From assembly GCA_037178675.1 (NCBI GenBank), contig JAYMGJ010000244.1, positions 1-64,000 of the forward strand: a stretch of 64,000 bases of DNA. The letters run 5' to 3'. Shown here one piece after another: positions 486 through 51,150 of the stretch. The DNA is from Scleroderma bovista (taxonomy: Eukaryota; Basidiomycota; Agaricomycetes; Boletales; Sclerodermataceae). The notes below the pieces were generated by a model. It had not been told where the DNA came from and made no database searches. It saw only the letters and a list, made by a program, of their open reading frames with translations. The position numbers were made by a program, and so were the translations under genes. Each line of letters begins with the position of its first letter. Position 1 is the stretch's first letter.

Positions 486-3400
486 TCACTTACACATACA
501 GTTGTTTACAATGATATCAACAGTGACCTGCATTAATGCATCATAGTTATTATTGCTATGTTCCTTAATGGAATGCTGAAGAGCATTGAGAACAGTGGCT
601 TGGGTTCCAGAGGTTTGATATTCCTTCACAGCAAGATCAAGAGTGTTGCTAGCATCTCCATTTTGCTGCAGAAGAAAGTAGGAGTATTCAAAAATGAGAA
701 TGCATCCTTGGAATGATTTAGAGAGTACATGTGAGAAAGAAAGTTTCCTCACCAGCTCCATGAATGATTGACTTGTACATAGGGGAAACCATAAACAAAG
801 GATGCATTAAGGGTAATGCACCAGATGTAATATCAACATCAGAATCTTTCTGTTAAATCACAAAACACATCAGTTAAATTCTAATGAAAGAAATGGTGCC
901 TCACAAACTGAGGGACAGTCATATTGGTATATTAAAATGAATAGATATAAATAATATACCAAATTCTGGAAGAACATCATAGGAAACATGAATAACTGAC
1001 AAATTGAATGGCTTACATTCTAAGTGGTCAAAAGTTATGAAAGGTGCAAATAAATAAGTGTGAATGAGAACAAAAGAATGTGCTCACATCCTGAAGGCAT
1101 TTGTGTAAGGTTCATCACACTATATTTGCATCAGAGAGCTGCACTGATGGTAAACTTACTTGCTAATAACAAAAAAGATGGAAGTATGGCATGGAAATGT
1201 AATTAGAATTACATCAGGATTTAGAATAAAAATTACACACATTCTAGGAAGCCAACAGGACCAGAGTGGGGGAGAGCAGAGTGAGAAGGGACACAGCTGG
1301 ACCTGGCATGAAATCACTCACTTCCTGTCAAGCCAACAGCACCAGAGTAGGAGTGAGGTCAGTGAGAAGGGACCCAGCTGGACCTGGCATGAAATCACTC
1401 ACTGCCTGTCAAGCCAACAGCACCAGAGTGGGAGTGAGGTCAGTGAGAAGGGACCCAGCTGGACCTGGCATGAAATCACTCACCAACTGTGAGGCCAACA
1501 GCACCAGAGTGGTGAGGACAGTGAGAAGGGACCTAGCTGGACCTGGCATGAAATCACTCACATACTGTCAAGCCAACAGCACCAGAGGGGGAGTGAGGTC
1601 AGTGAGAAGGGACCCAGCTGGACCTGGCATGAAATCACTCACTGCCTGTCAAGCCAACAGCACCAGAGTGGGAGTGAGGTCAGTGAGAAGGGACCCAGCT
1701 GGACCTGGCATGAAATCACTCACATACTGTCAAGCCAACAGCACCAGAGGGGGAGTGAGGTCAGTGAGAAGGGACCCAGCTGGACCTGGCATGAAATCAC
1801 TCACATACTGTCAAGCCAACAGCACCAGAGTGGGAGTGAGGTCAGTGAGAAGGGACCCAGCTGGACCTGGCATGAAATCACTCACTGCCTGTCAAGCCAA
1901 CAGCACCAGAGTGGTGAGGACAGTGAGAAGGGACCTAGCTGGACCTGGCATGAAATCACTCACATACTGTCAAGCCAACAGCACCAGAGGGGGAGTGAGG
2001 TCAGTGAGAAGGGACCCAGCTGGACCTGGCATGAAATCACTCACTCCCTGTCAAGCCAGCAGCACCAGAGTGGGAGTGAGGTCGGTGAGAAGGGACCTAG
2101 CTGGACCTGGCATGAAATCACTCACATACTGTCAAGCCAACAGCACCAGAGTGGTGAGGACAGTGAGAAGGGACCTAGCTGGACCTGGCATGAAATCACT
2201 CACATACTGTCAAGCCAACAGCACCAGAGGGGGAGTGAGGTCAGTGAGAAGGGACCCAGCTGGACCTGGCATGAAATCACTCACTGCCTGTCAAGCCAAC
2301 AGCACCAGAGTGGGAGTGAGGTCAGTGAGAAGGGACCCAGCTGGACCTGGCATGAAATCACTCACTTGCTGTCAAGCCAACAGCACCAGAGTGGGAGTGA
2401 GGTCAGTGAGAAGGGACCCAGCTGGACCTGGCATGAAATCACTCACATACTGTCAAGCCAACAGCACCAGAGGGGGAGTGAGGTCAGTGAGAAGGGACCC
2501 AGCTGGACCTGGCATGAAATCACTCACTTCCTGTCAAGCCAACAGCACCAGAGTGGGAGTGAGGTCAGTGAGAAGGGACCCAGCTGGACTTGGCATGAAA
2601 TCACTCACTCGCTGTGCCAACAGCACCAGAGTGGGAGTGAGGTCAGTGAGAAGGGACCCAGCTGGACCTGGCATGAAATCACTCACTCCCTGTCAAGCCA
2701 ACAGCACCAGAGTGGGAGTGAGGTCAGTGAGAAGGGACCCAGCTGGACCTGGCATGAAATCACTCACATACTGTCAAGCCAACAGCACCAGAGTGGGAGT
2801 GAGGTCAGTGAGAAAGGACCCAGCTGGACCTGGCATGAAATCACTCACTCCCTGTCAAGCCAACAGCACCAGAGTGGGAGTGAGGTCAGTGAGAAGGGAC
2901 CCAGCTGGACCTGGCATGAAATCACTCACATACTGTCAAGCCAACAGCACCAGAGTGGGAGTGAGGTCAGTGAGAAAGGACCCAGCTGGACCTGGCATGA
3001 AATCACTCACTTGCTGTCAAGCCAACAGCACCAGAGTGGGAGTGAGGTCAGTGAGAAGGGACCCAGCTGGACCTGGCACAACATCACTCACATACTAGCA
3101 TCATGCCAACCCAACAATAATCATAGTTAGAGCTCATTCATTACTTCCATGAATTTGGAAACCTAATCACCTATTGCAACAATTTTATCATATCAAACAC
3201 AAGGTAAACATTTCCCCAACCTTAAATGGCATCCAGTTCATTATGCACATTTCCAAGGCCATCTTGTCAAATTTGTTGTCCACCACAAAGTATTTCAGTC
3301 CTCTGCCCAGTACTTGAGTGTCAGCACCAGATCATATACCAATGTCACTCTCCCACCTTTTAACTGAGTATTCAATGTTCAGAACAATGTTAGCTTGCTG

Positions 3401-4483
3401 GGTTGAAACTACCAGCTTTTGCAGTTCCACCTCATTAAGAGCCTCTATTGTGCATCTTAGGAGTGAACTACAATCTGCATCCTCTTGGTTCATTCCTACA
3501 TTTGTATGTCCACATTAGCATCACCATAACATTAATTCAATCCATAACTCACTGGCCACTGACAAATAGGCCTTTGGGGGATACTTGCAGCCACTCAACT
3601 GGCTCTCAATTTTTGCCCTCAGTGTGCTTAACATTTTTGCTTCAAACTCTCCAACCCTTGGCTTTACTTCTTTCATTGGTAAACCACTTTCTCGCATGAG
3701 TTGATTGAGAGCAGGCACCCTTAAAGTGTCAGCCTTTGTCAACACAGCAATTACAGGCACTCCCCAACAATCATATCAGAATCATAATGATACCACTCAG
3801 AATGAAGTACCTTACCATTTCCTGTATTGCATTCATCGAAGAACTTCTCTTCTGCAGCCAAAATTGGCCTCTCGTAATCAGCCATTGAGATGCAAAACCT
3901 AGGTCACCATCAAATTTATATGATATATCCCTCAACTGTAGTTGTGATCTTACCAGATGGCATGGATACGCCTTTCCAACTTCAATGTGCGTGCTCGATC
4001 AGTGACAAAGTCTTTCATCAGGTTCAGCTCCTTCACAGAGCCAGTCTCGAATCCTCGTGAGTCATGAAATATAAAACCTGGGTTGCTCCGAAAAATCAGT
4101 TCATCTTCAATGTTATGATACCCCCTCTGAATAGAGTTAGTCTAGTTCATGTCACCGAACAAGCTCTCGTCGTAGGCTGACTCGCCTCCAATGACCCCTG
4201 CACGATCGCAGGATCAATCTGCGAAATGCCATGCATCAGTTAGTCGAAGGGACATATGATACGGTAGCATGAGGTACTTGACCTTTTCGCCTTTGGCATT
4301 GAAGATCTCCGGGAGCTCTGTTGTGTTGCAAACACGCTGCAAGAGCGTCGTTTTACCTGCATTTGACCTGCCGAGGACGAGGATTCTGAAGTAACCAATA
4401 CGATCGAAGTGCTCTTTGACTTCCGCAGGATCCATCCTGAAAGTGTCTACCGCCATATCATTGAATAACGTACAAACAGTCAT
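486..4483 (-). CDS. P-loop GTPase with single-codon exon array
   Basis: A GTP-binding domain protein of a family expanded in Agaricomycetes; its cellular role is unknown. Conventional exons on the minus strand: 4483-4283, 4218-4186, 4126-3954, 3898-3816, 3759-3553, 3495-3357, 3302-3221; then very short exons between 3094 and 905; then 849-753 and 706-486 (stop). G1 is GRSNAGKT near residue 40, G3 is HDSRGFE, G4 is TKAD. The C-terminal exons (GCILIFEYSYFLLQQNG onwards) match the family's usual tail, so the gene really crosses the repeat array. Summed exons give 1326 nt: 441 codons plus stop with all micro-exons, 411 without. The start is the ATG at 4483. The first intron has a GTCAAG donor and the second a GC donor. 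The intron at 3220-3095 is the least certain part: it is long (126 nt) with a weak donor. Domain identity is from recognised motifs; splicing is inferred from consensus sites and phase. Confidence 0.85.
905..1243 (-). other. six further micro-exons in unique sequence
   Basis: Downstream of the array the same architecture continues in non-repetitive DNA. Exons on the minus strand: 1243-1241 AAT, 1162-1160 CAA, 1090-1088 GAT, 1019-1017 AAT, 965-960 AATTTG, 907-905 TTT. Each is preceded by a consensus acceptor (CTTCCTAG, TTATTAG, CTTCAG, CTTAG, CTTCCAG, CCTCAG) and followed by a donor (GTGTGT, GTAAGT, GTGAGC, GTAAGC, GTATAT, GTGAGG). The introns between them run 51-78 nt. All are phase 0 and lead into the 849-753 exon in the frame KDSDVD. 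The one closest to the array is preceded by a degenerate array unit (1262-1321). Confidence 0.75.
1244..3094 (-). repeat. 81-bp tandem array of intron plus one-codon exon
   Basis: Twenty-three units of 81 bp (some 78 bp through 3-bp deletions). On the gene strand each unit reads codon, GTGAGTGATTTC..., CTGAC about 35 nt before the end, then TTGGCTTGACAG, then the next codon. That is an intron of 75-78 nt followed by a 3-nt exon. The codon lies between plus-strand cactcac and ctgtcaag. In gene order the first codon is at 3094-3092 (TAT) and the last at 1324-1322 (GAA). Codon counts: TAT 10, GCA 4, GGA 3, CAA 2, GAA 2, CGA 1, TTG 1. The first ten decode to YQYGYGREYQ and the other thirteen to 5 Tyr, 4 Ala and one each of Gly, Leu and Glu plus one further Tyr-adjacent residue set consistent with the counts above. 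Each intron has an in-frame TGA just before its acceptor, so retention would stop translation. Some 78-bp units have CTGTC in place of CTGAC but keep CTCAC. Confidence 0.85.
4127..4185 (-). other. GC-AG intron in the GTPase gene
   Basis: The coding frame requires joining GAG at 4186 to AGG at 4126, giving the family sequence SLE-RGYHNIEDE. The 59-nt gap begins GCGAGT and ends TTCAG, a GC-AG intron. Reading through it meets an in-frame TAG. Confidence 0.75.
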
Positions 4484-4697
4484 GGTGACTAGACCTGGAA
4501 GTTACTACTCACTCGCTTCGTCGGACCCTGCAGCACGCTGCCCAGAGTTCCTGAATGACAAGGCCGACCGAAACTTGCTCAAGAGTCCAGAAGCCATTCT
4601 CGCAGAAATTCGTTTGCTGTGAAGTCGTATCACGGGAGAGTTGTGTAAAGAGGCGAACGGAGAGTGGTGGTCAAAGTACAAGCCGCAAGGCCAACAT

Positions 4698-30119: not shown

Positions 30120-31500
30120 TCTATTATTGCAAATCTAGTACAGGCCTGAGGGACATTAATCACTGCAAAACTGGGATGGGCTGATGTTTGATAAAAATTG
30201 CAGAACTGGGACTGGTGGGAGCATTGTAAAACTAGGTCAGGCCTGTTGAACAAAAAAATTGACAAGTGTTGCAAAGCTGGGACTGGCCGATGTTGTAGAT
30301 ACATTGCAAAACTGGGTCAGGCCTGTTGAGAAAAAAGTTGTCAATTACTGCAAAACTGGGTCAGGCTGACATGGCAGAATGGGGTCAGGCCTTTTGAGGA
30401 AAAAAAAATTGTCAAGCATTGCGAAACTGGGTCAGGCTGACATTGTATATACATTGCAGAACTGGATCAGGCCTGTTGAGAAAAAAAGTTGTCAAGCATT
30501 GCAAAACTGGGTCAGGCTGACATTGCAGAACTGGGTCAGGCCTGTTGAGGAAAAAGCAAAACTGGGTCAGGCTGACATTGCAGAACTGGGTCAGGCCTGT
30601 TGAGGAAAAAGTTGTCAAGCATTGCAAAACTGGGTCAGGCTGACATTGCAAAACTGGGCCAGGCTGACATTGCAGAACTGGGTCAGGCCTGTTGAGGAAA
30701 AAGTTGTCAAGCATTGCAAAACTGGGCCAGGCTGACATTGCAGAACTGGGTCAGGCCTGTTGAGGAAAAAGTTGTCAAGCATTGCAAAACTGGGCCAGGC
30801 TGACATTGCAGAACTGGGTCAGGCCTGTTGAGGAAATAGTTGTCAAGCATTGCAAAACTGGGTCAGGCTGACATTGCAGAACTGGGTCAGGCCTGTTGAG
30901 GAAAAAGTTGTCAAGCATTGCCTTGTATATACATTGCAGAACTGGATCAGGCCTGTTGAGAAAAAAAGTTGTCAAGCATTGCAAAACTGGGTCAGGCTGA
31001 CATTGCAGAACTGGGTCAGGCCTGTTGAGGAAAAAGTTGTCAAGCATTGCAAAACTGGGTCAGGCCTGTTGAGGAAAAAGTTGTCAAGCATTGCAAAACT
31101 GGGCCAGGCTGACATTGCAGAACTGGGTCAGGCCTGTTGAGGAAAAAGTTGTCAAGCATTGCAAAACTGGGCCAGGCTGACATTGCAGAACTGGGTCAGG
31201 CCTGTTGAGGAGAAAGTTGTCAAGCATTGCAAAACTGGGCCAGGCTGACATTGCAGAACTGGGTCAGGCCTGTTGAGGAAAAAGTTGTCAAGCATTGCAA
31301 AACTGGGCCAGGCTGACATTGCAGAACTGGGTCAGGCCTGTTGAGGAAATAGTTGTCAAGCATTGCAAAACTGGGTCAGGCTGACATTGCAGAACTGGGT
31401 CAGGCCTGTTGAGAAACAAAGTTGTCAAGTACTGCAAAACTGGGTCAGGCCTGTTGAGCAAAAAAGTTGTCAACCATTGCAAAACTGGGTCAGACCCAAA
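30120..31500. repeat. 68-bp satellite, left arm
   Basis: Tandem unit of about 68 bp: gttgtcaagcattgcaaaac, tgggycaggctgacattgca, gaactgggtcaggcctgttg, aggaaaaa. Each unit carries the half-repeat attgcaraactgggycagg twice. The mirror array is at 37300-38060. Confidence 0.85.
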
Positions 31501-31539
31501 ATTGATACACATTGCAGAATTAAATTACTGTGCTGACTA

Positions 31540-33480
31540 CCAAAAATGTGGACCATTGATTAGGCAATATTGTGTACTGTTGGTGTGATAGTGTTGACTA
31601 CCAAAGATGTGCAGCTTGGATTATCTAATGTTGTGTTCTATTGGTGTGGTAGTGCTGATTACCAAAAATGCGGACTATTGATTAGCCAATGTTGTGTAGT
31701 GTTGTTGTTGTAGTGTACTACCAAAAATGTGTAGTATTGATTACCTAATGTTGGGTACTCTTGGTGTGGTAGTGCTGATTACCAAAAATGCGGACTATTG
31801 ATTGGCCAATGTTGTGTAGTGTTGTTGTTGTAGTGTACTACCAAAAATGTGTAGTATTGATTACCTAATGTTGGGTACTCTTGGTGTGGTAGTGCTGATT
31901 ACCAAAAATGCGGACTATTGATCAACCAATATTGTGTGGTGTTGTTGTAGTGTACTACCAAAAAAAGTGTAGTACTGATTACCTAATGTTGTGTAGTATT
32001 GATGTGATAGTGTTCATTACCAAAAATGCGGACTGTTGATTAGCCAATGTTGTGTAGTGTTGTTGTTGTAGTGTACTACCAAAGATATGTAGTATTGATT
32101 ATCTAATGTTTTGTACTGTTGGTGTGGTAGTGTTGATTACCAAAAATGTGTAGCTTGGATTACCTAATGTTGTGTACTGTTGGTGTGGTAGTGCTGATTA
32201 CCAAAAATGCGAACCATTAGCCAATGTTGTGCAGTGTTGTTGTTGTAGTGTTGATTACCAAAAATGTGTAGCTTGGATTACCTAATGTTGTGTACTGTTG
32301 GTGTGGTAGTGCTGATTACCAAAAATGCGAACCATTAGCCAATATTGTGTAGTGTTGTTGTTGTAGTGTACTACCAGAAATGTGTAGTATTAATTACCTA
32401 ATGTTGTGTACTATTGATGTGGTAGTGTTGATTACCAAAAATGCGAACTATTGATCAACCAATGTTGTGTAGTGTCATTGTTGTAGTGTTGATTACCAAA
32501 AATGTGTAGCTTGGATTACCTAATGTTGTGTACTGTTGGTGTGGTAGTGTTGATTACCAAAAATGTGTAGTTTGGATTACCTAATGTTGTGTACTGTTGG
32601 TGTGGTAGTACTGATTATCAAAAATGCGGACTATTGATTAGTTGTTGTAGTGTACTAACAAAAATGTGTAGTATTGATTATCTAATGTTGTGTACTGTTG
32701 GTGTAGTAGTACTGATCATCAAAAATGTGGACTATTGATTAGTTGTTGTAGTGTACTACCAAAAATGTGTAGTTTGGATGACCTAATGTTGTGTACTGTT
32801 GGTGTGGTAGTGTTGATTATCAAAAGTGCGGACTATTGGTTAGTCAATATTGTGTAGTGTTAATTACCAAAAATGTGTAGTTTGGATTACCTAATGTTGT
32901 GTATTGTTGGTGTGGTAGTGTTGATTATCAAAAATGCGGACTATTGATTAGCCAATATTGTGTAGTTTGGATTACCTAATGTTGTGTACTGTTGGTGTAG
33001 TAGTGCTGATTATCAAAAATGCGGACTATTGATTAGCCAATATTGTGTAGTGTTGTTGTTGTAGTGTACTACCAAAAATGTGTAGTATTGATTACCTAAT
33101 GTTGGGTACTCTTGGTGTGGTAGTGCTGATTACCAAAAATGCGGACTATTGATCAACCAATATTGTGTGGTGTTGTTGTAGTGTACTACCAAAAATGTGT
33201 AGTACTGATTACCTAATGTTGTGTAGTGTTGATGTGATAGTGTTCATTACCAAAAATGCGGACTGTTGATTAGCCATTATTGTGTAGTATTGTTGTAGTG
33301 CACTACCCAAAATCTGTAGTGTTAATTACCCAATGTTGTGTAGTGTTGATTACCAAAAGTGCGGACTTCTGATTAGCCATTATTGTTTAGTGTTGATTAC
33401 CAAAAATGCGGACTATTGATTAGGAAATGTAGTGTAGTGTTTGTGTATTGGAGTTGATTACCAACATTGTGTAGTTTTCA
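31540..33480. repeat. 120-bp dimeric satellite, left arm
   Basis: Composite of two ~60-bp halves, one with gattaccaaaaatgcggacta and one with tactaccaaaaatgtgtagt. A 120-bp period is clear at 31680-31920, with degenerate and deleted units elsewhere. The mirror array is at 35320-37270. The same core motif is found at 49.4-51.1 kb. Confidence 0.8.
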
Positions 33481-34353
33481 TTAACTAAATTCAGTAGTGT
33501 CAACACTTGATTACATAAGCTCTCCAAGCGCCACTACTCCCAAAACATTACCATATTTGGTCAATAGTTGACTTCAAATATTCCCACCTTTGTTCTGGTA
33601 CTTTTCTTCCCCTTCTGTGCTTCATCCCTGGTCCAAATGTACTGTAAAAATGATTCTGTATCCCATATTACCCTATAGGATCACCATTGGACCCTCATCT
33701 AAATGTGCAAGGGGCTCTGTATCCCCAGAGAGTAGTGCAGGCTTAAAAACACCAAAAATGTTCGCATTTTTGATACATTCAACATATCAACTTAAAGAAT
33801 GCATCCCCATACAGGGGATATATGTACCTACAACATATTTACAGTCCACAGCATCGGATCCATGTCCTGGTGCGATGTTTTATGTTTTTCCTTTGCAAAC
33901 ATATCACCATGGCAGGCAATTACTAGGAGGTATGGTGGCTACTGGATGGTCTCCAGTGGTATTACTATGCTATACCAAAGTCCCAATACAATCTAGTGAG
34001 CAGCTGACCACTCCAAGAGGAGCAGCATAGAAAACAGCACTTTCATAACAATAGGTGCTGTATGATCCTCCAGATCAGGTATGCACAATATGACTATCTC
34101 AAAAGCTGGGGGATACCATACAGTAGTGGATACAATTTACTCAAGTCAATACCGCTTGATGTGGGGGAGGGAAGGGCACAATAACATACAGAAGGCGTGG
34201 GAAAATACCCCACAAAATGCGGAGATATGCAAAAACATTACATATCACACAACACATAACATCTACTGACCTAGAAATGCTACCAACAGCCTACTAATAT
34301 CACATAATGCTTATACTCAGCTGTTCCTGACATGCTTAGAGGCACAAATCATT
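33480..34353 (+). repeat. unique-sequence inner arm, left
   Basis: Non-satellite part of the left arm. It contains a 146-codon open frame (33590-34030) and a 62-codon frame (34081-34269), both duplicated identically in the other arm. Neither matches a family I know, so coding status is doubtful. Confidence 0.6.
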
Positions 34354-34449
34354 CAAGGTTTGAAAAATGCGGAAATGTGCTACATCATATCAGTACTGCA
34401 GGTGCAAAGCTGCAGTGTATATGGACAGTAACAACATGTTCTTGGTTCA
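34354..34449. other. 96-nt spacer at the palindrome centre
   Basis: The only unpaired sequence between arms. Inverted similarity stops at 34353 (aaatcatt) and resumes at 34450 (aatgattt). Confidence 0.8.
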
Positions 34450-35320
34450 AATGATTTGTGCCTCTAAGCATGTCAGGAACAGCTGAGTATAAGCATTATG
34501 TGATATTAGTAGGCTGTTGGTAGCATTTCTAGGTCAGTAGATGTTATGTGTTGTGTGATATGTAATGTTTTTGCATATCTCCGCATTTTGTGGGGTATTT
34601 TCCCACGCCTTCTGTATGTTATTGTGCCCTTCCCTCCCCCACATCAAGCGGTATTGACTTGAGTAAATTGTATCCACTACTGTATGGTATCCCCCAGCTT
34701 TTGAGATAGTCATATTGTGCATACCTGATCTGGAGGATCATACAGCACCTATTGTTATGAAAGTGCTGTTTTCTATGCTGCTCCTCTTGGAGTGGTCAGC
34801 TGCTCACTAGATTGTATTGGGACTTTGGTATAGCATAGTAATACCACTGGAGACCATCCAGTAGCCACCATACCTCCTAGTAATTGCCTGCCATGGTGAT
34901 ATGTTTGCAAAGGAAAAACATAAAACATCGCACCAGGACATGGATCCGATGCTGTGGACTGTAAATATGTTGTAGGTACATATATCCCCTGTATGGGGAT
35001 GCATTCTTTAAGTTGATATGTTGAATGTATCAAAAATGCGAACATTTTTGGTGTTTTTAAGCCTGCACTACTCTCTGGGGATACAGAGCCCCTTGCACAT
35101 TTAGATGAGGGTCCAATGGTGATCCTATAGGGTAATATGGGATACAGAATCATTTTTACAGTACATTTGGACCAGGGATGAAGCACAGAAGGGGAAGAAA
35201 AGTACCAGAACAAAGGTGGGAATATTTGAAGTCAACTATTGACCAAATATGGTAATGTTTTGGGAGTAGTGGCGCTTGGAGAGCTTATGTAATCAAGTGT
35301 TGACACTACTGAATTTAGTT
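34450..35320 (-). repeat. unique-sequence inner arm, right
   Basis: Exact-looking reverse complement of 33480-34353, including both open frames. Confidence 0.6.
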
Positions 35321-37270
35321 AATGAAAACTACACAATGTTGGTAATCAACTCCAATACACAAACACTACACTACATTTCCTAATCAATAGTCCGCATTTT
35401 TGGTAATCAACACTAAACAATAATGGCTAATCAGAAGTCCGCACTTTTGGTAATCAACACTACACAACATTGGGTAATTAACACTACAGATTTTGGGTAG
35501 TGCACTACAACAATACTACACAATAATGGCTAATCAACAGTCCGCATTTTTGGTAATGAACACTATCACATCAACACTACACAACATTAGGTAATCAGTA
35601 CTACACATTTTTGGTAGTACACTACAACAACACCACACAATATTGGTTGATCAATAGTCCGCATTTTTGGTAATCAGCACTACCACACCAAGAGTACCCA
35701 ACATTAGGTAATCAATACTACACATTTTTGGTAGTACACTACAACAACAACACTACACAATATTGGCTAATCAATAGTCCGCATTTTTGATAATCAGCAC
35801 TACTACACCAACAGTACACAACATTAGGTAATCCAAACTACACAATATTGGCTAATCAATAGTCCGCATTTTTGATAATCAACACTACCACACCAACAAT
35901 ACACAACATTAGGTAATCCAAACTACACATTTTTGGTAATTAACACTACACAATATTGACTAACCAATAGTCCGCACTTTTGATAATCAACACTACCACA
36001 CCAACAGTACACAACATTAGGTCATCCAAACTACACATTTTTGGTAGTACACTACAACAACTAATCAATAGTCCACATTTTTGATGATCAGTACTACTAC
36101 ACCAACAGTACACAACATTAGATAATCAATACTACACATTTTTGTTAGTACACTACAACAACTAATCAATAGTCCGCATTTTTGATAATCAGTACTACCA
36201 CACCAACAGTACACAACATTAGGTAATCCAAACTACACATTTTTGGTAATCAACACTACCACACCAACAGTACACAACATTAGGTAATCCAAGCTACACA
36301 TTTTTGGTAATCAACACTACAACAATGACACTACACAACATTGGTTGATCAATAGTTCGCATTTTTGGTAATCAACACTACCACATCAATAGTACACAAC
36401 ATTAGGTAATTAATACTACACATTTCTGGTAGTACACTACAACAACAACACTACACAATATTGGCTAATGGTTCGCATTTTTGGTAATCAGCACTACCAC
36501 ACCAACAGTACACAACATTAGGTAATCCAAGCTACACATTTTTGGTAATCAACACTACAACAACAACACTGCACAACATTGGCTAATGGTTCGCATTTTT
36601 GGTAATCAGCACTACCACACCAACAGTACACAACATTAGGTAATCCAAGCTACACATTTTTGGTAATCAACACTACCACACCAACAGTACAAAACATTAG
36701 ATAATCAATACTACATATCTTTGGTAGTACACTACAACAACAACACTACACAACATTGGCTAATCAACAGTCCGCATTTTTGGTAATGAACACTATCACA
36801 TCAATACTACACAACATTAGGTAATCAGTACTACACTTTTTTTGGTAGTACACTACAACAACACCACACAATATTGGTTGATCAATAGTCCGCATTTTTG
36901 GTAATCAGCACTACCACACCAAGAGTACCCAACATTAGGTAATCAATACTACACATTTTTGGTAGTACACTACAACAACAACACTACACAACATTGGCCA
37001 ATCAATAGTCCGCATTTTTGGTAATCAGCACTACCACACCAAGAGTACCCAACATTAGGTAATCAATACTACACATTTTTGGTAGTACACTACAACAACA
37101 ACACTACACAACATTGGCTAATCAATAGTCCGCATTTTTGGTAATCAGCACTACCACACCAATAGAACACAACATTAGATAATCCAAGCTGCACATCTTT
37201 GGTAGTCAACACTATCACACCAACAGTACACAATATTGCCTAATCAATGGTCCACATTTTTGGTAGTCAG
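35320..37270. repeat. 120-bp dimeric satellite, right arm
   Basis: Reverse complement of the 31540-33480 array, in the same register as the left arm to the base. Confidence 0.8.
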
Positions 37271-37299
37271 CACAGTAATTTAATTCTGCAATGTGTATC

Positions 37300-38060
37300 A
37301 ATTTTGGGTCTGACCCAGTTTTGCAATGGTTGACAACTTTTTTGCTCAACAGGCCTGACCCAGTTTTGCAGTACTTGACAACTTTGTTTCTCAACAGGCC
37401 TGACCCAGTTCTGCAATGTCAGCCTGACCCAGTTTTGCAATGCTTGACAACTATTTCCTCAACAGGCCTGACCCAGTTCTGCAATGTCAGCCTGGCCCAG
37501 TTTTGCAATGCTTGACAACTTTTTCCTCAACAGGCCTGACCCAGTTCTGCAATGTCAGCCTGGCCCAGTTTTGCAATGCTTGACAACTTTCTCCTCAACA
37601 GGCCTGACCCAGTTCTGCAATGTCAGCCTGGCCCAGTTTTGCAATGCTTGACAACTTTTTCCTCAACAGGCCTTTTGCAGGCCTGACCCATGCTTGCCCA
37701 CAACTTTTTCCTCAACAGGCCTGACCCAGTTCTGCAATGTCAGCCTGGCCCAGTTTTGCAATGCTTGACAACTTTTTCCTCAACAGGCCTGACCCAGTTT
37801 TGCAATGCTTGACAACTTTTTCCTCAACAGGCCTGACCCAGTTCTGCAATGTCAGCCTGACCCAGTTTTGCAATGCTTGACAACTTTTTTTCTCAACAGG
37901 CCTGATCCAGTTCTGCAATGTATATACAATGTCAGCCTGACCCAGTTTCGCAATGCTTGACAATTTTTTCCTCAAAAGGCCTGACCCCATTCTGCCATGT
38001 CAGCCTGACCCAGTTTTGCAGTAATTGACAACTTTTTTCTCAACAGGCCTGACCCAGTTT
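37300..38060. repeat. 68-bp satellite, right arm (contracted)
   Basis: Mirror of the left-arm array but about 430 bp shorter. At 37670-37710 the unit is scrambled (aggccttttgcaggcctgac, ccatgcttgcccacaac), unlike any unit in the left arm. Confidence 0.75.
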
Positions 38061-38348
38061 TGCAATGTATCTACAACATCGGCCAGTCCCAGCTTTGCAA
38101 CACTTGTCAATTTTTTTGTTCAACAGGCCTGACCTAGTTTTACAATGCTCCCACCAGTCCCAGTTCTGCAATTTTTATCAAACATCAGCCCATCCCAGTT
38201 TTGCAGTGATTAATGTCCCTCAGGCCTGTACTAGATTTGCAATAATAGAAAACATCGGCCTGGCCCAGTTCTGCAAGCATCGGCCGGCGTCGGCTAGTCC
38301 CACCTTTACAGGCAAATGTACATGTCCGATGACCCACTTTTGCGAGGG

Positions 38349-46791: not shown

Positions 46792-48112
46792 CTTTCATCC
46801 CAGAGTCCTGTCACATCCATCTCCCTCTATCATTCATCTCGCTTCCCTGGACACGTCGAATCTGCTACTTGCGATTCTCTTCCCTGCTATCCCACAACAA
46901 ACACAAATGAAACAGTGCTCTAGAACCCTTCTTAGGAGCCCTAATAGAGTACAGAACCTTCCCCTTACTGCTCAAGGGAAGACTGCACTTCGGGAGCACC
47001 AAATTTCGCATTTTTGCTCTACAGAAGCTCAATCCAAGGGATTTGTGACACTCTGTGACCAGCTGTGACTCTACTTGTCATTCCAGGCCCCCTGACACTG
47101 CTCTTCTGGTCGGATCAATTCTTTTATTATCCCCCAGCCACTCCCATCAGTGGCACTGCTTCAGAAGCTCATCTCCAGATCTAAAGTTCAATAAATCACA
47201 GGTTGTGCTTCCCTTCTGTCTGAGTCACACAGAGTCACTCTGGCTCACTCTGACTCACTCTGCTGTGCATTATTCATCCCCTCTTGGCATTACTAATCCC
47301 CATTACTCCCCTTACCAATCACTTACCAATCATCCTTCAAATCATGCTTATCATGCTGCTTATCAATTCATGACTCATGCCCCTATGATTCATATGCATT
47401 ATGTCATCGCATATGCTCATTTAGCTTCGATCTACTCATCCCATGCTTTCCCCCCCTCTCTTTTGGGCCCCATGCAATGATTTTTCCATATTCTTGGTTA
47501 TACACCCCTTTTTACCTATGTTTTTGCTCTTTCCCTTGGCTCAGCAGCTTGTTCAGGCTCTCCCCATCAATGACTCAGCCTTATTACACTGCTTATCAAT
47601 CGCTTACCAACATCAGCAAATCACTTTGTTCTGGACAGTTCTGGACAGTGCCACACAGAGCCACAGAGCCCCCAGCTTAGTCCATACTGGACAGCTCTGT
47701 CCAGATAGACATAGACTGTGGACTTCTATGGAAGTCTGTACAGCTCTCCCCAGTTCTCCCCAGATGTACAGAATCATTAGCAAAACTAGTACACACTTAC
47801 CCTTAGTACTCCTTTGCAACACCAATACTAGGCTTTGTCCAAAAGCCAATTCAAAGCTCTCATAGTAGTAATAACACTCATTCAGACTCTTATGGCACTC
47901 ATAGTAATTTGTATAGCACCAAATATATTATCAATTACTAACTACATACATGGTGTGTTGACTACTAGTACCAAAAACACTGCTCCAATGAAGCAATACT
48001 AAGGTTGAGTTAGTGACAAGCTAGATCAAGCTAAACAAAAAGAACTTACAGGGTGGTTGTCAATTTCCGGCAGGCTAATAGCCTCTAATCATGCTTGACC
48101 ATAGTCAAATAA

Positions 48113-48380
48113 CCTATTAGTACAATTGTTAGACAAGTTAATATGTAATGGTAGTGGGAAACTTACCATTAGCTCCGGCACTAGCATTTGTTGTGTAGTC
48201 AAATAGCCTATTTGTACCATTGTTAGACAAGTTAATATGGTAGTAGTGCCAGGAAACTTACCATTAGCTCCGGCACTAACATTTGTTGTGTAGTCAAATA
48301 GCCTAATAGTACCATTGTTAGACAAGTTAAAATGTAGTGGTAGTAGGAAACTTACCATTAGCTCCGGTACTAACATTTGT
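48113..48380 (-). repeat. three ~95-bp units with intron-like signals
   Basis: On the minus strand each unit reads GGAGCTAATG, GTAAGTTTCC, TTGTCTAACAATGG (branch-like CTAAC), ATTAG or AATAG, then GCTATTTGACTACACAAC. That is a 53-55 nt intron-like segment plus a 41-nt exon-like segment. Since 41 is not a multiple of three, the units do not form an in-frame exon series. It may be a duplicated exon-intron piece of a captured gene. Confidence 0.55.
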
Positions 48381-48452
48381 TGTGTTGAGCCCACTCCTAC
48401 ATAGTAGGAAAAGGCATTTGTTTGGTCTGGTTTGCCATGTTGCGCAAGAGGT

Positions 48453-49325
48453 TTTTTTTATTTTTTTTATTTTTTAAATCCAATTTATGGTCATATGGAG
48501 GGATGAGCCCTATGCTAGACCTTACATGCAGATGTGTGCTGAACTATAGTAGAGGTGAGTGTCTAAGTGTGTAATCTAAAACATCGTAAGCCTCGGGAGG
48601 GCCCGAGACAGGTGTGAGTAAGAGCTGCGCGGAAGATTAGTGAGAACAATGCGTGTGTATCGTAAGGAGTGTTCCATGTAGAGAGAAAGAAATATACAGT
48701 GGGGGCAGCTTTACTGGCGACGTTCGGGAGGGGAGAGGTTCCCGAAGGTTGGTGCCAGTCTCTTGGTGCTTTCGACGAATCTCAGAAGATGTCTGGTGTT
48801 GTTGGGATTGGCTAGGAGCCCTTTGGGGTTCATCTTGCGCGGGCCGACTTTAGCTCTTAACATGTGCCTTGACTCCTCGTAAGCAGGACACAGGAATAAG
48901 AGATGGTGGACAGTCTCGTAGGCTGCCTCGCAGTTGGGACAGGCGGGGGAAGGGATTTTGCCTATTCTGGCGAGGTGATGGTTTAGGGGGATGTGTCCCG
49001 TGCGTAGTTGCATGACGGCGCTGGCGTGGCGGCGTGGTAAGAGGTGAACCAGCGCTGAGAATTTGGCGGAAGGAAGGGATGGGTCGATCTGATGCATGCG
49101 TCTTCCCCTTTGGGAGGAGGCGAAAGTGTTTTTGGCTTTCTCCTTGACGAGGGCGTTGTGGTTCTGAATGAGTGCTGATTTATTGTGGGGCAGGGGGATG
49201 GGTCCATCTCTCCTCCGCAGCGTTTGCGGAAGCTGATCCTTGCAGCTGGTTTCTCCCTCCACGGCTTTCTTTGCCTCAGCGTCTACTGACTCATTTCCCG
49301 CTATGTTGGCGTGCCCTGGCACCCA
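48453..49325 (-). mobile_element. 5'-truncated LINE with 12-bp target duplication
   Basis: 873 bp flanked by TGCGCAAGAGGT at 48441-48452 and 49326-49337. A T-rich tail (48453-48475 on plus) is the poly(A) end of a minus-strand insertion. The coding part carries the end of RNase H (WVPGHANIAGNESVDAEAK) and the C-terminal Cys-His domain (CPNCEAAYETVHHLLFLCPAY). It belongs to the same family as the copy at 54521-55241. Confidence 0.9.
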
Positions 49326-49429: not shown

Positions 49430-51150
49430 GGTACTACACTTTTGCTACACAACATTTGTACTACGCATTTTTGGTAATCAGCACTACATTACAAACACTA
49501 CACAACACTTGCTAATTGATACTACGCATTTTTGGTAATCAACTCTACAACACAAACACAACACAACTACTCCGCATTTTTGGTAATTAACACTACACTA
49601 CAAACACTACACAACACATCCTAATTGATACTACACATTTTTGGTAATCAACTCTACAACACAAACACAACACAACTACTCCGCATTTTTGGTAATTAAC
49701 ACTACAACACAAGCACAACACAATTACTCCGCATTTTTGGTAATTAACACTACACCACAAACACAACACAACACTTCCTAATTGATACTACACATTTTTG
49801 GTAATCAACACTACAACACAAACACAACACTTCCTAATTGACACTACACTTTTTACTACACTTTGACTACACTTTTGGCACACTTTTACTATGCTTTACT
49901 ACGCTTTTTTGGTACACTTTTATTACACTTTTTACTACACTGTTTACTACACTGTTTACTACACTGTTTACTACACTTTTTTGGTACACTTTTATTACAC
50001 TTTTTACTACACTTTGACTACACTTTTGACTACACTTTATTACGCTTTTTTGGTACACTTTTAGTACACTTTGACTACACTTTTGGTACACTTTTACTAC
50101 ACTTTTACTACACTTTTGGTACACTTTTACTACACTTTTACTACGCTTTTTTGGTACACTTTTACTACACTTTTACTACACTTTTACTACACTTTTTTGG
50201 TACACTTTTTAGTACACTTTATTACGCTTTTTTGGTACACTTTTATTACACTTTTACTACACTTTTGGTACACTTTTACTACACTTTTTTTGGTACACTT
50301 TTATTACACCTTTTACTACACTTTTACTACACTTTTGGTACACTTTTCACTACACTTTTTTGGTACACTTTTATTACACTTTTATTACACTTTGACTACA
50401 CTTTTGACTACACTTTTACTACACCCTTTTGGTACACTTTTATTACACTTTTTACTATACTTTGACTACACTTTTGGTACACTTTTCACTACATTTTTGA
50501 GGTATGCTTTTTACTACACTTTTACCAATGAGGTATGCTCAAAAATGTAGTGAAAAGTGTACCAAAATCAAAGTATAGTAAAAAGTGTAATAAAAGTGTA
50601 CCAAAAGGGTGTAGTCAAAAGTGTAGTCAAAGTGTAATAAAAGTGTACCAAAAAAGTGTAGTGAAAAGTGTACCAAAAGTGTAGTCAAAGTGTCATAAAA
50701 AGTGTAATAAAAGTGTACCAAAAAAGTGTAGTAAAAGTGTAATAAAAGTGTACCAAAAAAGCATAGTAAAAGCATAGTAAAAGTGTGCCAAAAGTGTAGT
50801 CAAAGTGTAGTGTCAATTAGGAAGTGTTGTGTTGTGTTTGTGTTGTAGTGTTGATTACCAAAAATGTGTAGTATCAATTAGGAAGTGTTGTGTTGTGTTT
50901 GTGGTGTAGTGTTAATTACCAAAAATGCAGAGTAATTGTGTTGTGTTTGTGTTGTAATGTTAATTACCAAAAAGGTGTAGTAGTTGTGTTGTGCTTGTGT
51001 TGTAGTGTTAATTACCAAAAATGCGGAGTAGTTGTGTTGTGTTTGTGTTGTAGTGTTAATTACCAAAAATGTGTAGTATCAATTAGGATGTGTTGTGTTA
51101 TGTTTGTGTTGTAGTTGACTACCAAAATGTGTAGTACCAATTGTTTTGTA
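49430..51150. repeat. AT-rich palindrome of simple repeats
   Basis: Left arm to about 50500, spacer of about 36 nt, right arm from about 50538. The outer parts consist of gcatttttggtaatcaacac-type units with acaaacacaacac. The inner part consists of ttttactacacttttggtac units and their complement. The tactacgcatttttggtaat core is shared with the 31.5-37.3 kb satellite. Long open frames here (FGTLLLHFYYTF type) are compositional. Confidence 0.7.

Follow-up and report, generated by a model that had tools for sequence, protein, structure and literature searches.

Single-codon exons predicted in tandem array recur across a GTPase gene family of Scleroderma bovista

The window analysed here is the first 64,000 nucleotides of contig JAYMGJ010000244.1 of Scleroderma bovista (GenBank assembly GCA_037178675.1; host genome of 51.8 Mb in 850 contigs), its base 1 being the contig end. 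A gene occupies the minus strand from 4597 to 500 and beyond (Table 1). Its first eight exons encode a predicted P-loop GTPase that scores 23.1 bits against PF01926 (MMR_HSR1), above the curated cut-off of 21.9; the protein used in the homolog, Pfam and C-terminal searches was written without the GSLE of exon 3. Among the matches listed, the named homologs of this protein were best scoring in Scleroderma and lower in Pisolithus and Astraeus. Exons 1 to 8 add up to 966 nt, a multiple of three (the 954 nt obtained with a 21-nt exon 3, 4218-4198, are likewise), so that all 29 micro-exons that follow fall in phase 0, as had been claimed. With 28 exons of 3 nt and a single 6-nt exon, the gene has several exons no longer than 51 nt, by which micro-exon genes are recognised. 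The original prediction had counted 23 tandem units followed by six micro-exons in unique DNA; the total of 29 stands, divided into 24 exons in the array and five unique ones. Neither the total length of 441 codons nor the stop codon that it had placed after them is supported, because the paralog alignment indicates coding through 706-500 and on to a GTATGT-type donor at 499, to which the predicted reading frame continues at least. A search with the C-terminal region gave one match, P0131, which reads like a raw open reading frame and was set aside.

Table 1. Predicted features of the array gene in the window
Feature	Position	Strand	Length or content	Basis or remark
Exon 1	4513..4597	-	85 nt, ATG at 4597	reading frame and splice sites
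Exon 2	4283..4446	-	164 nt, P-loop GRSNAGKTT	PF01926 match spans predicted-protein residues 49-184
Exon 3	4186..4218	-	33 nt, IDPAIVQGSLE, GC donor	GSLERG present in relatives too
Exon 4	3954..4126	-	173 nt	gene model
Exon 5	3816..3898	-	83 nt	gene model
Exon 6	3553..3759	-	207 nt, TKAD motif	gene model
Exon 7	3357..3495	-	139 nt	gene model
Exon 8	3221..3302	-	82 nt, end ..WMPFK, phase 0	gene model
Array	1241..3094	-	24 single-codon exons reading YQYGYGREYQAYYGYAYYAYLAEN and 23 introns of 78 or 75 nt	TRF, junction profile
Array exons 1-12, first bases	3094, 3013, 2932, 2851, 2770, 2689, 2611, 2530, 2449, 2368, 2287, 2206	-
Array exons 13-24, first bases	2128, 2047, 1966, 1888, 1807, 1726, 1645, 1564, 1486, 1405, 1324, 1243	-
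Unique micro-exon	1160..1162	-	CAA	AG-CAA-GT in 18/18 paralogs
Unique micro-exon	1088..1090	-	GAT	kept in 18/18 paralogs
Unique micro-exon	1017..1019	-	AAT, length fixed	codon differs between paralogs, 18/18
Unique two-codon exon	960..965	-	AATTTG, length fixed	sequence differs between paralogs, 18/18
Unique micro-exon	905..907	-	TTT, length fixed	codon differs between paralogs, 18/18
3' exon	753..849	-	97 nt, KDSDVDITSGALPLMHPLFMVSPMYKSIIHGA	paralog alignment
3' exon	500..706	-	207 nt, GCILIFEYSYFLLQQ.., then GTATGT donor at 499	paralog alignment

Elsewhere in the window, the tandem arrays at 30222-33441, with units of 68 bp and 61/120 bp, are matched by counterparts with reverse-complement-like units at 35362-38134, and 30222-38134 appears to be a large inverted arrangement. 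A smaller AT-rich array pair (48, 109, 157 bp and 11-bp units), also with an inverted look, lies at 49459-51142. On the minus strand at 48700-49300 a frame containing CPNCEAAYETVHHLLFLC (translated by eye) resembles what we take to be the end of a LINE-type reverse transcriptase. A 94-bp triplicate at 48102-48385 sits in no recognised gene and was set aside.

TRF reports the array as 23 copies of an 81-bp unit at 1249-3096 (93%). Of its 23 predicted introns 19 measure 78 nt and four 75 nt; all begin with the GTGAGT of the original prediction and 20 end in CTTGACAG. CTGAC, proposed at the same time as the branch-like motif, is not supported as a general branch point, being found in 18 of the 23 and in 146 of 641 introns of the family. 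The similar CTCAC is present in all 23 and in 587/641, at a median of 30 nt from the 3' end. Across six diverged arrays (192 units) per-base conservation was 1.00/1.00 at the AG and 1.0/.99/.95/.92/1.0/.95 along GTGAGT, against.31/.38/.52 in the triplet between them. This is partly built in, because the units behind the junction profile had been collected by fixed motifs for donor and acceptor (the triplet being in no motif), and the GATTT after the donor is nearly as well kept (.80-.97 overall with the G). Folding the RNA of roughly two units revealed nothing unusual (z -0.86).

The one-codon-exon arrangement recurs across a GTPase gene family, which, like the codon hypervariability described below, goes beyond the original prediction. 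Junction copies in the genome numbered 752 exact ones with a 3-nt exon, or 1222 with up to three mismatches, and the reversed control gave none; exact junctions enclosing 2 nt and 4 nt numbered four and three. Among the matches listed, all 14 contigs with junctions also carried GTPase exon matches. The DNA of the 3' exon matched 18 places (the window gene is locus L044), and TRF found an 81-bp array at 18/18, a figure subject to the choice of these loci by their 3' exon. GTPase exon matches were found on the same contig for 17 of them, and the contig of the other (L039, on C512) ends inside the array. Together with L045-L047 this makes 21 copies with arrays examined; further array loci (e.g. 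on C101, C111 and C271) lie outside these, and so do most of the 154 exon matches to the related protein P0013, found on many contigs, by which the GTPase family is large. Over the 18 loci the profile gave 672 forward hits, of which 665 span the junction and 659 of these, 10-77 per copy, have canonical AG..GT/GC borders (655 GT and four GC), that is, U2-type signals. Dropped were the seven that do not span the junction and six non-canonical ones: five AA acceptors and one TAA, the latter in L012, with no donor and 585 nt from the array. L045-L047 add 87 exons free of stops, 84 of 3 nt, two of 2 nt and one of 4 nt.

Outside the repeats, the five unique micro-exon sites keep their AG, their GT or GC and their length in 18/18 paralogs; two are invariant, three vary in codon and none in length, in a region where a group of four loci and a group of seven, out of the 18, share 61% identity. 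The broken units at the 18 loci are the five AA acceptors and two TGA codons. All five AA acceptors are in L039 and L040, and four in L039 share the codon TAT, which suggests copying of one broken unit. Exons of 2 nt, one or two each, occur in L009, L046 and L047, and exons of 4 nt in L037 and L047, because of which these four copies are out of frame as assembled. The four exact 2-nt exons genome-wide read CAG-GA or CAG-GG before the donor; a G could have dropped out of a run of Gs there, through assembly error or slippage. Over 2023 aligned columns the 3' parts of L035 (C298) and L036 (C127) differ by a single gap and by no mismatch. Yet 10 units remain in L036, and about 22 kb separate it from the matching GTPase part on C127; the array of one copy of this pair seems to have been split by an insertion.

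Exon length is nearly constant in these arrays: 653 of the 659 canonical exons measure 3 nt, and four of the six others differ by a non-multiple of three. In contrast, 111 of 631 introns differ from 78 nt, 75 of them by a non-multiple of three (intron counts cover gaps of 40-110 nt). The 653 codons include two stops, both TGA, against a mean of 94.5 when each codon position was shuffled within arrays; none of 2000 shuffles was as low, or even below 75. Counted by distinct type per array, stops were 2/163 versus 18.0 expected (0/2000 shuffles as low), and the exact junctions of the whole genome contain no TAA or TAG and two TGA. TAA, the clearest case, is missing where 55.5 were expected, even though CAA, GAA and AAA together number 212. 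Two other groups of triplets are rare, NTA (3 versus 63.7 expected) and NAG (CAG, AAG and GAG; 4 versus 24.2), as would be expected if the codon must not form a rival 3' splice site. Reading through in phase 0, 530 of the 631 introns give an in-frame stop and 58 more shift the frame, leaving 43 open, so the unit is not translated as a folded repeat.

The best-supported reading of the array is the one originally proposed, in which spliceosomal introns separate exons of a single codon. In our judgement the protein stretch between the P-loop GTPase domain and the C-terminal domain is very probably encoded one codon per exon, given the constant exon length, the missing stops, the splice-site bases kept and the unique sites conserved in 18/18 paralogs, to which the protein P0013 described below can be added. 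These same data make it highly improbable that the array is a minisatellite within one large intron, with triplets that are never exons and an incidental 81-bp period. Such an intron would suit models from relatives like P0001, which end shortly after WMPFK. On the other hand, it leaves without explanation the depletion of stops, the fixed 3-nt exons beside indel-rich introns, the splice-site bases kept even in diverged arrays, the rarity of NTA and NAG, and the fact that retention of a single intron would mostly stop or shift the frame.

P0013 (453 aa, from a 2346-base contig with the tag lgn, in another genome) was among the 120 listed of 438 homologs. It is 60% identical to the window protein, and 78-87% over residues 12-111 at its six best places in this genome. 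Its GTPase exons run unbroken to WMPY and are followed by 80 residues (K16 S14 E13 L12 W7 and others) and then by VSDFMAGPAGCPLLSSLPLWSCCLDRRI, which is the in-frame translation of an array intron; the tail VSDFMAGPAGC.. matches array introns with an E of 1e-9. The simplest reading would be an RNA in which many array codons had been joined and one intron kept, which makes P0013 indirect evidence of a transcript and a further point against a single large intron. Of the 80 residues, the initial LQ may still be part of the last pre-array exon, which is the case in L042 and L043. No contiguous counterpart of the 80 residues appeared in 19 loci of this genome (best E 8.4), and they could come from one ordinary exon in that relative. 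From the tag lgn we infer an assembly of public reads.

The 18 NCBI-named relative models were compared as protein sequence. P0001 and P0017 end soon after the pre-array exon, and others continue without a long string. Four proteins of Pisolithus or its kin (P0071, P0048, P0052 and P0065) have short low-complexity strings at the place of the array, e.g. FFLDFFLEEVFERRRRRC. Translated array introns matched 10 proteins (nine tagged ena, one lgn and ena) with exactly one residue between the WQ-like and VS-like flanks at the 31/31 places found with the pattern used. These proteins look like chance open frames through unspliced 81-bp units of other assemblies, so relatives of the array unit appear to exist there, which by itself does not demonstrate splicing. 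The viral collection and the prokaryote genomes contained no array and no relative of P0013.

The opposite strand also offers a protein, of 27-residue repeats with one variable residue each, in an open frame of 610 aa in the window and 1908 aa in L033. The triplets that would be stops on that strand (TTA, CTA and TCA) total 1/653 versus 52 expected, as coding there would require. Even so, we regard it as extremely improbable. In 520 introns of 78 nt the antisense frame shows 1428 nonsynonymous versus 335 synonymous changes (possible 113 versus 22), and 165/1928 changes (8.6%) create stops versus 6.3% of the possible ones; therefore there is no sign of coding constraint. Stops interrupt the antisense frame in 28/40 introns of L013 and 18/30 of L035, both diverged arrays. 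Furthermore, ATA and GTA are depleted as well (3 versus 27), which antisense stops do not explain, and antisense coding accounts neither for the depletion of sense stops nor for the phase-0 link to the flanking exons.

Within arrays the predicted codons are hypervariable. Identical 78-nt flanks are shared by 2140 unit pairs, of which 620 also share the codon and 499, 448 and 573 differ in it at one, two and three positions, so that homogenised units with hypervariable codons, as in PRDM9, are found here from within-array pairs. L046 (C127) and L047 (C298) occupy matching positions, each with another shared gene 16-17 kb away. Their identity is 97.6% in the upstream flanks, 90.7% in the downstream flanks and 99.6% in the introns, which comprise two distinct sequences among 28 in L046 (29 exons) and five among 36 in L047. 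Their codon strings, however, are no more alike than shuffled ones: the longest common subsequence is 11, against a shuffled mean of 10.3, and 398 of 1000 shuffles were as high. The two copies may be alleles or duplicates, neither being favoured, and may not be intact, because as assembled each contains an exon of 2 nt and L047 also one of 4 nt. Nine other close pairs were compared, of which five share codon order beyond shuffles (<=5/300 as high) and four do not, and therefore the strings seem to have been inherited and then scrambled; between the window gene and L009 the shared order was 16 versus 12.5 shuffled.

The segment predicted from the array is of low complexity, with E, Q, R, Y, F, L, A, W and G abundant. 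In 11 arrays tested against 500 shuffles there was no general helical periodicity of codon order, the exceptions being L039 (0/500 at 100 degrees), L037 (24/500) and L038 (5/500 at 160 degrees). The P0013 string was not unusually amphipathic (127/500 shuffles as high).

Near-identical introns beside freely differing codons, with L046 as the extreme case, could also have arisen by intron invasion, an introner-like burst into an old continuous exon that would make the codons old and the introns young. We consider this unlikely to a high degree, since codon choice in the array is unlike that of ordinary exons. No array codon ends in C (0/653 versus 93/419 in constitutive exons), the ratio GAG:GAA is 2:102 against 12:17, and one synonymous codon per amino acid is used in 135/144 array-by-amino-acid cases. 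In addition, a tandem duplication is visible inside the codon string of L038, and we know of no introner that inserts at every third base. No continuous-exon version of the array string was present in the fetched loci, which are copies from the same genome rather than orthologues of other species.

The absence of third-base C fits a loss of CpG before the G of the following GT. CpG numbers 21 in array introns against 3455 expected, and its observed/expected ratio is 0.014 in the window array and 0.025 in the 1.2 kb 3' of it, versus 0.55 in the GTPase exons and 0.77 upstream. Limited as it is to one half of the gene, the loss of CpG points to methylation or a RIP-like process.

We propose that each array unit would consist of a complete spliceosomal intron in phase 0 and a single codon, and that the introns would be removed and the codons joined into a variable protein segment. 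Removal would most likely proceed one intron after another, because U1 and U2AF can hardly both occupy a 3-nt exon. As each unit boundary is the edge of a phase-0 intron, units could be gained, lost, shuffled or skipped with the frame preserved. Concerted evolution (unequal exchange and gene conversion) would keep the introns near-identical and also change copy number, and the diversity of codons would be maintained by selection or generated by a targeted process. The product of each gene copy would thus be a hypervariable, low-complexity segment, and its residue richness and variability would perhaps suit a recognition surface.

Since the units resemble one another in donor, acceptor and phase, any donor might also join any later acceptor in frame, and frequent skipping would then give a population of in-frame variants. 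The five units with AA acceptors would be passed over harmlessly. We hold such skipping to be rather unlikely, although it is compatible with single-codon exons: the depletion of stops implies frequent inclusion of the codons, and the ~80 joined residues of P0013 are close in number to the units of the larger arrays (57-77 in L033, L038, L039, L042 and L043). The largest version of the proposal, of which we remain more doubtful than convinced, is that of a eukaryotic diversity generator. The GTPase would carry a recognition segment whose codons are rewritten, added, dropped or recombined by splicing in a frame-safe manner, far faster than the neighbouring intron bases, possibly via a process aimed at the codon or one re-homing the introns, to yield a hypervariable repertoire.

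If the one-codon-per-exon reading is right, exon and codon coincide in an architecture that makes protein variation frame-proof, and dozens of consecutive 3-nt exons would be a severe test of the spliceosome. The arrays would also offer a natural setting where codons diversify beside identical introns that do not. Such genes could go unnoticed, as annotation sees 3-nt exons poorly.

Schistosome micro-exon genes also have runs of very small exons of the same phase. In agreement with the original prediction, which knew of no array with one codon per exon, our literature search (thin on subscription journals and preprints) found no report of a run of one-codon exons. The bicycle and megacycle genes of aphids resemble the arrays in having many tiny exons of one phase in a row, more than 100 microexons in a megacycle gene, but the bicycle exons are mostly of phase 2 and do not consist of one codon, and near-identical tandem introns are not mentioned in the available part of that account (PMC9168663). 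Plants demonstrate that exons of one nucleotide can be spliced, those of APC11 and VPS55 having been confirmed by RNA-seq and RT-PCR; as far as the available text goes they are isolated and conserved, unlike the arrays of hypervariable exons described here (PMC8831610). Introner-like elements supply hundreds of near-identical spliceosomal introns per genome. According to the accessible portion of the source they lie in unrelated genes, whereas the arrays examined here belong to one GTPase family, with introns head to tail and one codon between (PMC4457414). Within what the available parts of these sources describe, none of the compared systems brings together exons of a single codon, identical introns in tandem and hypervariable codons.

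The zinc-finger arrays of PRDM9 and the repeats of TAL effectors are homogenised tandem units with few hypervariable specificity codons, and the arrays of Scleroderma bovista resemble them in their uniform units with hypervariable codons. They differ in that PRDM9 and TAL effectors translate the whole unit, whereas here 78 of the 81 bases would be intron and only the variable codon would be kept.
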